Positions 17,678 to 32,304 of a DNA stretch of 64,000 nucleotides are shown in pieces (position 1 is the first letter of the stretch; every line of letters begins with the position of its first letter). Under the pieces are notes generated by a model that searched no databases, had not been told where the DNA came from, and saw only the letters and a list, made by a program, of their open reading frames with translations. A program made the position numbers and the translations under genes. The stretch is from positions 1,781,051-1,845,050 of the forward strand of contig NZ_LT629731.1 in assembly GCF_900104575.1 (NCBI RefSeq). The letters run 5' to 3'. The DNA is from Bacillus tuaregi. GTDB lineage: Bacteria; Bacillota; Bacilli; Bacillales; Cytobacillaceae.

Positions 17678-17710
17678 AGCGGCTGACCAACGTCTGGTCA
17701 AGCCGCTTTT
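17678..17710. terminator. bidirectional terminator hairpin
   Basis: AGCGGCTGACCA (17678-17689) pairs with TGGTCAAGCCGCT (17695-17707) with one bulged base; T-runs on both sides. It probably ends the minus-strand GNAT transcript; repeat copy B starts directly at its right edge. Confidence 0.75.
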
Positions 17711-17865
17711 AACTTCATTCAGCAGAAGTCCTCCACTTCTACAAGTGGGGGTTCAAACCCCGGCTGAATGAAGTAAAGCCTCCGGCGGATGTCTCGGATT
17801 TTTTAAAGGTAATTTATCGAGCGAGCTCAGGTAATCCGGACGCAAATTCGACGGGCGAATTTGAT
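17709..17865 (+). repeat. structured interspersed repeat, copy B (5' and 3' modules)
   Basis: The 5' module is bounded by TTCATTCAGC (from 17715) and GCTGAATGAA (17763-17772), and contains the hairpin CCTCCACTT/AAGTGGGGG and GGTTCAAACCCC. The 3' module (17775-17865) has CCTCCGGCGGATGTC, CGGATT/AATCCG and the last hairpin CAAATTCG/CGAATTTG. Relative to copy D it lacks about 38 bases inside the 5' module. Confidence 0.88.
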
Positions 17866-17934: not shown

Positions 17935-18486
17935 CTATGCTTCCAATCTTTGAGTATCCTCGATGGTTGTTCTTTTTGTATGCAGCGTATAAAGGTCCTT
18001 TGGAATTTCAAACAACCTGTAAATGTCACCATTTGAGTTTAATTGCTCGAAAAGGGATTTACGGGATTCCTCAGCATTGATGGTGTAGGGAAGTTTTTCA
18101 GCGGCTTTTTGTGAGCGGATATTTTCTGTACGGATACGCATAAAGACTGTTTCAATGTTTAGCTCATAGAAGAGTTCCTCAAAGAAGGCAGCTTTTGCAC
18201 GCTGATTATATCCTTTTCCGTGAAAGGGCCTACCAAGCCATGTTCCTAAGAAGCCGGCATTTTCCTGGATATCATATAGGCTGATTGTGCCGATTGGGGC
18301 TCCCCAATCATCAAGAATGGTTCTAGAGATTAGTTCGCCACGCTCTTCGGCCTCAATGGTTTGCTTTGTGATAAATAAAAATTCCTCATAGGATCGAGCT
18401 TTATGGCGCACAAAAGGGAAGACATCAGGGTGTATCATCAAGTCATATAATTCATGGCATTCATGTAGTTCGCGTTTCTTCAGCAT
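17935..18486 (-). CDS. GNAT-family N-acetyltransferase (RimJ/RimL-like)
   Basis: 183 residues of a RimJ/RimL-type acetyltransferase: LKKRELHECHELYDLMIHP at the start, GAPIGTISLYDI, FLGTWLGRPFHGKGYNQRA (the acetyl-CoA phosphate-binding segment, G-x-G-Y form) and FMRIRTENIRSQKAAEKL. ATG 18486 is chosen because TTGGAGGGG lies eight bases before it; an in-frame GTG at 18543 would start inside a strong hairpin. Substrate unknown. Its leader contains a tRNA-like fold and a hairpin overlapping the SD (see those entries), so translation may be regulated. Nothing around it resembles a GNAT-toxin antitoxin. Confidence 0.88.
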   Translation of the reverse strand: MLKKRELHECHELYDLMIHPDVFPFVRHKARSYEEFLFITKQTIEAEERGELISRTILDDWGAPIGTISLYDIQENAGFLGTWLGRPFHGKGYNQRAKAAFFEELFYELNIETVFMRIRTENIRSQKAAEKLPYTINAEESRKSLFEQLNSNGDIYRLFEIPKDLYTLHTKRTTIEDTQRLEA

Positions 18487-18492
18487 GGTTAA

Positions 18493-18509
18493 CCCCTCCA
18501 ATTTGAGGG
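18493..18509 (-). promoter_or_regulatory. possible Shine-Dalgarno-sequestering hairpin
   Basis: On the minus strand CCCTC (18509-18505) faces GAGGG (18498-18494) across a six-base loop, and GAGGG is part of the SD of the GNAT gene. A second GAGGG at 18547-18543 could pair with the same CCCTC instead. Confidence 0.5.
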
Positions 18510-18538
18510 CAGTTTTTCTCCATGACAAAGAGTTATCG

Positions 18539-18586
18539 CCCACCCTCGAAATTTTTTATAATCTTACTAAAAAATTTCGGGGTGGG
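18539..18586 (-). promoter_or_regulatory. long hairpin overlapping the tRNA-like element
   Basis: 18539-18557 and 18569-18586 are complementary over 18 pairs with a single bulge (CCCACCC-T-CGAAATTTTTT against AAAAAATTTCG-GGGTGGG on the plus strand) around an 11-base loop. One arm consists of the T-arm 3' strand and acceptor 3' strand of the tRNA-like fold, so the two structures exclude each other. No T-run follows, so a simple terminator is unlikely. Confidence 0.7.
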
Positions 18587-18639
18587 AATCGAACCCACTA
18601 GAACCAGAATGACTGGTGGCGCACCATTTGCCTTCCCAA
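18577..18639 (-). ncRNA. tRNA-like cloverleaf (pseudo-tRNA) in a gene leader
   Basis: Read on the minus strand from 18639: acceptor TTGGG pairs with CCCGA; D-arm GGC/GCC with a nine-base loop containing GG; anticodon-like stem CCAG/CTGG with a five-base loop TCATT; variable region TTCTA; T-arm GTGGG-TTCGATT-CCCAC with a canonical T-loop. It has a five-pair acceptor, too small an anticodon loop and no CCA end, so it cannot be a normal tRNA. It lies 91 bases before the GNAT start. It could be a degenerate tRNA copy left by recombination, or a tRNA-mimicking leader; the overlap with a competing hairpin favours the second slightly. Confidence 0.6.
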
Positions 18640-18879
18640 TTACCTTTAACACAATATAATATTTTCTGACTGAACATAAGCAACATCGTATCGATGTTAA
18701 CTAATATCGTCTCCTTTGAAAAAAATTCAAGTTCAAATAAATGACAGATTGAATAACATCTATTCGTATTTTACATAAAAAAATCAAAAAAGAAAATGTT
18801 GTTTTTGTAAATTATCGATAAAGATTATGGACAATTTTTGACAAGAAATCATACTATTGTAAAAAAATGATATGTTGTG
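18640..18879. other. intergenic region, promoter side of the GNAT leader
   Basis: AT-rich. On the minus strand AACATCG-ATA-CGATGTT (about 18682-18699) is an inverted repeat, and TTGCTT followed 17 bases later by ATTATA is a possible sigma-A promoter leading into the tRNA-like element. No reading frame with an SD was found. Confidence 0.4.
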
Positions 18880-21126: not shown

Positions 21127-21262
21127 CAGGCTAAAAACAATCATAGTCAGTTACTATATATTCAGGTTAGACACAAAAATTTAACAATAAATGACTATTG
21201 ATTAGCGTAATACATTGTCTCTTATTTTGAACTATGATACTATAATGTTAATTTAATAAGGA

Positions 21263-21401
21263 ATCCTTCGGGGCTGGGTGAAATTCCCAACCGGCGGTGA
21301 TGAGGTGATGCCTCTTAGTCCGTGACCCGGTTTCAGTAATGAAAACGGTGGATTTGGTGAAATTCCAAAGCCGACAGTGAAAGTCTGGATGGGAGAAGGA
21401 T
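21263..21401 (+). promoter_or_regulatory. FMN riboswitch (RFN element)
   Basis: The closing stem ATCCTTC (21263-21269)/GAAGGAT (21395-21401) encloses the conserved RFN blocks: GGGGCTGGGTGAAATTCCC, ACCGGCGGT, AGTCCGTGA, GGATTTGGTGAAATTCC, AAGCCGACAGT and AGTCTGGATGGGAGA. FMN binding should cause termination at the hairpin 21478-21512. A promoter with TTGTCT and TACTAT or TATAAT lies just upstream. Confidence 0.97.
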
Positions 21402-21477
21402 ATGGAAGCGACACGTTAAAAAATGAGAGTATACTAACGTTTATTTAGTGTTCCGTTTTTTATGGTATTGCATGATG

Positions 21478-21512: not shown

Positions 21513-21683
21513 AAGTTTTTACCACCAAAATGATCATGGAAATAGTCTGTCATTAATTAACCGCATTTTATGATCTCCTCCAATGTGTTTTATTATCCTT
21601 TTCTCCTGCAAAAGTTACCCCACAGCGAACGGATACCGATAAATTTCCCCATATATACTACAGCTAAAAGGAGGAAAACTGCC

Positions 21684-31940: not shown

Positions 31941-32304
31941 TTGACAAAAGAAGAAAAAACCCTTATTCTTAAGTAGGACATATTTTCGTATTGAACGAAA
32001 GTAAGATGTTTTGCTGTACTAGAGGACCATCGCAAGTAAGTACTATCACCTTCCAATAATACTTCCTTACATGAACGAATGTAATGTATCTTCGTATATC
32101 CAACACTCTTTGTAAAAAATCTCAAATCATCTTTTTATCACATTATAAGCAAAACCTGATTCCTATTGGCGCGGTCTCGGAACCGTATAGATGGAAGAGA
32201 GGCAGGGCTTCTGTTGTATTAGGTTTATTAATGATTCTAACTGAAAATATATTAATATAGATATGTCTAAAAAGGATGATCACAGGAACATGGTCATCCT
32301 TTTC
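31941..32304 (+). ncRNA. candidate non-coding transcription unit between glpK and csp
   Basis: TTGACA (31941-31946), 17 bases, TATTCT (31964-31969) is a good sigma-A promoter; AAAAGGATGA (32270-32279)/TCATCCTTTT (32294-32303) is a good terminator. Between them no reading frame with an SD was found; local stems TTTCGT/ACGAAA and CGGT/ACCG occur. It could be an RNA of roughly 330 bases. The rest of 31883-32337 holds nothing else I recognise. Confidence 0.45.

Follow-up and report, generated by a model that had tools for sequence, protein, structure and literature searches.

A tRNA elbow-like leader upstream of an acetyltransferase gene in Bacillus tuaregi and its relatives: a candidate translational switch

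Organization of the leader

The window, that is, the whole 64,000-nucleotide stretch of Bacillus tuaregi DNA analyzed here, carries on its minus strand a gene for a GNAT acetyltransferase, preceded by a leader in which a truncated tRNA-like cloverleaf and a large hairpin overlap. All of the parts named in an earlier, sequence-only reading of the locus were found on that strand between 18637 and 18486, and they are listed here together with a promoter-like stretch and the gene.

18766..18798, minus strand: promoter-like stretch, a T-rich tract followed by GTAAAATAC, aligned by eye to CTATTTCTTTTTT..GTATnATAC of relatives
18579..18637, minus strand: truncated tRNA-like cloverleaf, 59 nt, element position 1 being 18637 (sequence, covariation, covariance model)
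18637-18635 with 18581-18579, minus strand: acceptor stem, 3 bp, GGG with CCC (sequence)
18632-18630 with 18620-18618, minus strand: D-stem, 3 bp, GGC/GCC (sequence)
18621..18629, minus strand: D-loop AAAUGGUGC with GG (GG in all 7 D-loop forms of 206 parsed leaders)
18603..18617, minus strand: variable arm at the position of the anticodon arm (pairs AC1-AC4 in 206/206, AC5 in 194/206)
18582..18598, minus strand: T-arm GUGGGUUCGAUUCCCAC (same T-loop in 209/209 leaders)
18598-18594 with 18586-18582, minus strand: T-stem, 5 bp, GUGGG/CCCAC, with T-loop UUCGAUU
18539..18586, minus strand: competing hairpin, 18 pairs (folding, comparison)
18540..18547, minus strand: relay arm GAGGGUGG within the 3' arm of the hairpin (GAGGGTGG exact in 151 of 198 parsed leaders)
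18505..18512, minus strand: linker segment CUGCCCUC, just upstream of the Shine-Dalgarno sequence (sequence, constrained folding)
18499-18493, minus strand: Shine-Dalgarno sequence (SD) GGAGGGG (sequence)
17935..18486, minus strand: RimJ/RimL-type GNAT acetyltransferase gene, 183 aa, start codon at 18486

The cloverleaf had been described as 63 bases long; its T-loop and D-loop GG are present as described, but the conserved form spans 59 nt, the extra 5' bases 18639 and 18638 having no conservation in relatives. In the window cloverleaf the stretch UCUA lies between the variable arm and the T-stem. The competing hairpin pairs 18586-18569 with 18557-18539, forming an upper stem of 11 pairs and a lower stem of 7 with a bulged A18546. 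Its 3' arm is GAGGGUGGG, including one bulged A, and the 5' strand of its lower stem is made up of the T-stem and acceptor 3' strands of the cloverleaf (CCCACCCC). The proposal that the 18-pair hairpin excludes the tRNA-like fold therefore holds, both by sequence and by conservation, since the two structures use the same strands. The linker segment CUGCCCUC can form 8 pairs with the relay arm, two of which are G-U, and can pair through its CCCUC with the SD.

The 191-nt leader of the window has a folding z-score of -3.72, with 1 of 200 shuffles equally good, but the stability of the cloverleaf on its own is ordinary (z of -0.80); single-sequence folding is thus weak evidence, and comparison was needed. 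ARAGORN called no tRNA at the window element or at four other loci (L001, L097, L110, and L124), and the leader departs from a tRNA gene in having a 3-bp rather than a 7-bp acceptor stem and an arm of 11 to 68 nt in place of a 7-nt anticodon loop. A scan with Rfam 15 at threshold gave no match over the element in the window or at 20 other loci, where the sole match was an FMN riboswitch elsewhere. Rfam includes the yjdF riboswitch family; neither yjdF nor T-box riboswitches were matched at threshold (the gathering threshold for yjdF) in the window and the 20 other loci, or in a permissive scan of the region, in which the element scored far below threshold as tRNA-Sec (15.2 bits) and YrlA (14.7 bits).

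Conservation and distribution

A DNA search of 61 genomes, comprising the genome of origin and those of relatives, found matches in 52, representing 40 of 49 genera. Of these 52 elements, 50 were used to train a covariance model (R1), two with long inserts (L044 and L049) being excluded. The model matched 225 of 299 sampled genomes of the same order, the weakest best hit having an E value of 9.6e-10. In a sample of 398 genomes of the class it matched 35, one of which (G494) was a tRNA, leaving 34 true carriers, of which 27 belong to the order and 7 to a single further family. Carriers among the matches listed include Priestia, Metabacillus, Neobacillus, Cytobacillus, Anoxybacillus, Parageobacillus, Oceanobacillus, Halobacillus, Jeotgalibacillus, and a Kurthia. 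A search of plasmids yielded one match, in Cytobacillus spongiae, likewise upstream of a GNAT gene; a search of phages for the element yielded none. Eight pattern matches in viral contigs are unlikely to be elements, an ARAGORN tRNA overlapping the match in 7 of the 8 and none being called in the other (L263). A match in a Daviesbacteria genome (L151) resembles a T-arm and has neither a GNAT gene nor a tRNA call by ARAGORN, and we do not count it as an element.

A relaxed search of 39 genomes with the model returned two groups of matches, one at 62 bits or more and the other at 40 bits or less. All 12 inspected members of the lower-scoring group coincided with an ARAGORN tRNA (10 tRNA-Gly, 1 tRNA-Glu, and 1 tRNA-Trp). 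That the next-best matches of the model are tRNAs is itself a sign of the tRNA likeness of the element. Descent from one particular tRNA is another matter: the best alignment, to tRNA-His, scored 19.0, which lies within the range obtained when the T-arm was kept and the rest shuffled (16.3 +/- 2.1, maximum 22.8, 40 shuffles), and so no such descent is established.

In an alignment of 49 distinct sequences, 98.5% of the base-pair cells of the cloverleaf and upper hairpin are paired, with 10 doubly changed pairs, and 0 of 500 shuffles of the same alignment reached any of the five measures used. The hairpin form, when a local alternative hairpin on its 5' side is included, has 94.5% of its cells paired; its seven doubly changed pairs all lie in the upper stem. 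Each pair of the lower competing stem is kept in 43 to 49 of the 49 elements, apart from the outermost (21 of 49), and no double change was seen in that stem among the 49.

For a larger comparison, tRNA loci and L135 were excluded, 8 loci were dropped in which the start, the 5' end, or the GNAT gene was not recognized, and loci up to L260 gave 209 distinct leaders from 239 loci. The D-arm pattern fits 206 of the 209, the remaining three having a G-U in the D-stem. In these 206 the acceptor, D-stem, T-stem, and first four arm pairs are standard throughout, the fifth (innermost) arm pair in 194, and compensatory changes occur in the T-stem, the variable arm, and the upper hairpin. Among the 209 T-arms, 201 have GUGGG/CCCAC, 5 AUGGG/CCCAU, 2 GUAGG/CCUAC, and 1 GUGGG/CCCAU, the G-C to A-U changes having occurred in two lineages, while the T-loop UUCGAUU is invariant. 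By contrast, the arm at the anticodon position ranges from 11 to 68 nt in 143 distinct sequences; the elbow is thus fixed, and no anticodon is kept. Most of the elbow stem pairs, including the D-stem and the acceptor, hardly or never vary, and covariation is no test of them. Judged across the aligned sequences as a whole, the comparative evidence is decisive for the reality of the element.

Linkage to the acetyltransferase gene

In all 52 loci of the first search, the start codon of the same GNAT gene lies 84 to 155 nt past the T-arm core, and among the 120 pattern loci listed, 119 have the gene within about 900 nt, the exception being the Daviesbacteria match described above. All 34 carriers in the class sample also have the GNAT gene (E of 1e-20), and inside the order 27 of 28 GNAT carriers in that sample have the element. 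When 27 element-free genomes of the order were checked, the gene was absent from 25 (E of 1e-10); the other two (G065 and G107, of one genus) have it without the element. Several families outside the clade that carries the element have GNAT orthologs without such a leader, and for this reason a GNAT gene that already existed probably acquired the element.

Comparison of the GNAT protein gave many RimL/SpeG-type matches and no clear substrate. Among the 50 matches listed, kinship was mainly to SpeG, RimL/RimJ, FdhC, PseH, MccE, and AAC(6')-Ib types; aminoacyl-tRNA-acetylating toxins of the TacT/AtaT type do not figure in that listing, which by itself proves nothing. PADLOC returned no family at an E value of 1 or below.

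Two loci depart from the usual arrangement. One genome (G108) has three elements, two upstream of GNAT genes and a third (L135) that no GNAT gene follows; the next long reading frame there encodes an unrelated, probably membrane-bound protein. In another (G337, locus L269) the GNAT is 66% identical to that of the window, and the T-loop is not recognizable in its leader, which reads GGGUA..UACCCGUAAAUUUUUU..AAAAAAUUUA..AAGGUAGG about 170 nt before the start codon and is perhaps a diverged switch of similar layout.

Relay pairing and predicted switching

The relay arm could be parsed in 198 of the 209 leaders; six of the remaining 11 were read by hand and added, giving 204 for tests of the arm. 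Eight pairs between arm and linker are available in 125 of 198 leaders versus 11% of shuffled linkers, and 6 or more in 193 of the 198 versus about 71%. Considered by itself, the duplex of linker and SD barely exceeds chance: 5 or more pairs are available in 181 of 198 leaders versus about 77% of shuffles. The segments that best bind the arm and best bind the SD do not overlap in 79 of 198 leaders. Where the relay arm deviates from the consensus (53 of 204), leaders' own arms scored better than permuted arms in 1000 of 1000 trials, but in the variant-arm leaders the consensus arm scores equally well (16.5 versus 16.2 for the real arm). Some leaders, such as L248 (UGGGGCAG with CUGCCCCA), L159, and L097, show apparent compensatory changes between arm and linker; these are suggestive but do not amount to a general pattern.

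The clearest test of the switch is forced folding, which was applied to 150 leaders with the consensus relay arm by using ViennaRNA energies, with dinucleotide-shuffled linkers as the control. With the cloverleaf forced, the relay arm is predicted to be fully paired in 54% of leaders versus 7.6% with shuffled linkers, and the SD is predicted to be more open in 107 of 150 (71%) versus 25%. SD opening was equal in 39 of the 150 and reversed in 4 (2.7% versus 21% with shuffled linkers). In the window leader forced into this form, the cloverleaf, the upper hairpin, and the relay helix are contiguous, with no gap. By secondary-structure energy, tertiary contacts being excluded, the OFF form is favored by a median of 7.0 kcal/mol over the 150 leaders, and the free minimum is the ON form in only 1 of them.

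Three leaders, L122, L177 (Scopulibacillus darangshiensis), and L183 (Pullulanibacillus pueri), have the cloverleaf before the GNAT gene and neither hairpin nor relay arm, and the lower stem is short in three more (L120, L161, and L248). The relay is thus not universal; leaders of the hairpin-free kind must work otherwise or through the fold itself, and perhaps the tRNA-like domain is a module used with other platforms as well.

Taken as a whole, the interpretation offered by the sequence-only reading is partly supported. It had proposed a three-strand scheme, in which arm-linker pairing does exceed that of shuffled linkers but linker-SD pairing is little above chance, and had held that the cloverleaf opens the SD, which constrained folding with its shuffled-linker controls favors but the three hairpin-free leaders do not follow. 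It gave each of the alternative folds a regulatory role; covariation in the cloverleaf and the upper hairpin agrees with this, whereas the lower competing stem offers no compensatory change. The covariance search of relatives that it had suggested recovered the element in three-quarters of the order's sampled genomes (225 of 299), and the lack of conservation at paired positions that it had named as grounds for abandoning the idea was not observed, nearly all cells of the cloverleaf and upper hairpin (98.5%) being paired.

Proposed mechanism and alternatives

We propose, with a probability of roughly 0.7, that the leader is a cis-acting translational switch with a sensor resembling the tRNA elbow, which is ON when the tRNA-like fold forms. 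In this model the 5' domain would be an elbow, consisting of a D-loop and a T-loop on short stems, a 3-bp acceptor stump, and an arm that is free to vary. When the domain is stable, the CCCACCCC strands would be occupied and the relay arm GAGGGUGG freed to pair with CUGCCCUC, leaving the SD open so that GNAT could be made. An unstable domain would be invaded by the relay arm, giving the 18-pair hairpin, and CUGCCCUC would then be free and able to cover the SD, with a fall in translation. Because OFF wins by secondary-structure energy, a signal, tertiary folding, or the order of events during transcription must favor the tRNA-like form. We infer the transcription of the element, the direction of the switch, and its signal. 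Our tentative first choice for that signal, which we rate somewhat short of an even chance, is a small-molecule inducer related to the substrate of GNAT; an inducer that stabilizes the fold would suit a gene whose enzyme would modify the inducer.

The main rival is a protein that reads the elbow, whether a TruB-type modification enzyme, an aminoacyl-tRNA synthetase, or GNAT itself, and that sets the same RNA switch. The invariant T-loop (209/209) and the GG present in every D-loop form are the contacts of a tRNA elbow, a structure that many proteins recognize (PMC4810234), and the leader is tied to only one gene. On the other hand, other bacterial families have the GNAT family but no such element, and binding of the cloverleaf by GNAT would turn translation on, a positive feedback that would be unusual for autoregulation; feedback by GNAT is accordingly the less likely version, because it would raise the enzyme's own synthesis. 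We consider a protein signal less likely than not, and rank it second among the candidate signals. Direct recruitment of the ribosome or a translation factor, in which the tRNA-like fold itself raises translation and the hairpin merely tunes the effect, is distinctly improbable. In the study of yjdF, translation rose 2- to 6.3-fold when cis-tRNA elements were present (PMC9142559), and the 3 of 209 leaders with a cloverleaf and no hairpin could be read this way, but the conserved relay arm and its complementarity to the linker would be needless in the other leaders, and the domain lacks a 3' end or a normal acceptor stem.

Transcription attenuation is very improbable. In the window the upper stem has UUUUUU at the end of its 5' strand, as though hairpin and U-tract made up an intrinsic terminator, but this tract forms the 5' side of a stem and lies 7 nt past the T-stem, and we reject the terminator reading on the 18 of 198 leaders that have no run of 5 U and all retain the upper stem (at least 6 pairs). 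The sequence-only reading had allowed that the element might be a functionless relic of a tRNA gene or a pseudo-tRNA, and a 16-base T-arm stretch is indeed identical to that in tRNA-His and tRNA-Gly(UCC/CCC) of relatives, but the element recurs in 40 of the 49 genera sampled and in 225 of the order's 299 sampled genomes, is attached to one gene, and shows compensatory changes; a relic is therefore scarcely credible, and we reject it. Two further candidates were rejected. A leader peptide starting at the AUG of the D-loop (AAAUGGUGC..UAG in the window) is contradicted by arm lengths of 14, 15, 16, 17, 18, and 19 nt, which break the frame, and by UUG or AAG at the AUG site in some leaders. A local hairpin, UGGUG/CACCA, that would replace the D-arm and the variable arm is seen in the free minimum-energy fold, but its changes are one-sided only, and 11 of 207 leaders have lost its outer pair; it may be present in the OFF state.

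Relation to known regulators

The closest counterpart is the yjdF riboswitch, in which ligand-stabilized folding of a tRNA-like structure opens the SD (Trachman et al. 2022, PMC9142559). Common to both are an mRNA leader, a tRNA-like fold with analogues of the D- and T-loops set against an SD-hiding form, and, as predicted for the present leader, control of translation, and the conservation and covariation described above support such a fold at the level of secondary structure. In yjdF it is the strand of the T-loop/P4 that pairs directly with the ribosome-binding site (PMC9142559), whereas here the relay arm intervenes in the predicted folds; a canonical tRNA T-arm and a GNAT gene also set the present leader apart. 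The element appears to work like the yjdF riboswitch and is not a member of that class, differing in its failure to match the Rfam model, in the way the SD is reached, and in the gene.

T-box riboswitches, likewise leaders of Gram-positive bacteria, also make use of the tRNA elbow in changing their structure (PMC4810234), but they bind a real tRNA, while here the leader itself is tRNA shaped. The pseudo-tRNA tRNA-Other of Bacillus cereus is also a tRNA-like RNA outside translation, in a relative; it is set apart by its Trp anticodon and its position beside a genomic island (PMC3399842), versus a gene leader with no fixed anticodon loop here. The guanidine-IV riboswitch and the orphan Gd4v candidate share the association with GNAT genes, but they are described as acting by transcription termination (PMC9788692), and Rfam gave no match to them at threshold here. 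No description of the element was found in the part of the literature that the search covered.

The layout common to riboswitches, a conserved aptamer and a mutually exclusive platform within the leader, is predicted for this element, with the platform absent in 3 of 209 leaders. We put at slightly better than even the chance that it is the founding member of a new riboswitch-like class of regulators in Bacillaceae and their kin, with an elbow-only sensor that is ON when stabilized by a signal and a third-strand relay to the SD. If true, this would be another case, after yjdF, in which an mRNA is switched by a tRNA-like fold of its own. To our knowledge, it would be the first in which the T-arm is that of a canonical tRNA and an arm free to vary replaces the anticodon arm. 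The element is widespread and bound to one uncharacterized acetyltransferase, and whatever stabilizes the fold could point to the substrate of the enzyme. The question also arises of whether an mRNA is a target of enzymes that modify tRNA or of factors that bind the tRNA elbow.

Surrounding sequences

Upstream of the element, relatives have a conserved T-rich tract and GTATnATAC without the usual -35 consensus. Of 204 upstream regions, 106 contain the motif GTATnATA, with 108 matches versus 16.4 expected from shuffles, and 94 of the 108 start 41 to 100 nt upstream of the element. The window's copy (18774-18766) deviates from the motif, and its assignment as a promoter is putative; if the motif is a promoter, transcripts would start upstream of the cloverleaf. 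A scan of the upstream regions for the sigma-70 consensus showed no excess (37% of 208 regions versus 39% of shuffles).

Just 3' of the GNAT gene, at 17690-17790 on the minus strand, lies an inverted-repeat unit of the GGGGTTTGAACCCC..CTTCATTCAGC type, which has 59 matching pieces in its own genome, itself included, and which we regard as an interspersed repeat, perhaps MITE-like. Elsewhere in the window, Rfam identified an FMN riboswitch (21260-21404, plus strand, 117.2 bits), followed by frames at 21570 and 22387 that by eye resemble riboflavin synthesis genes, and a BsrC-family RNA (32140-32227, minus strand, 59.9 bits).
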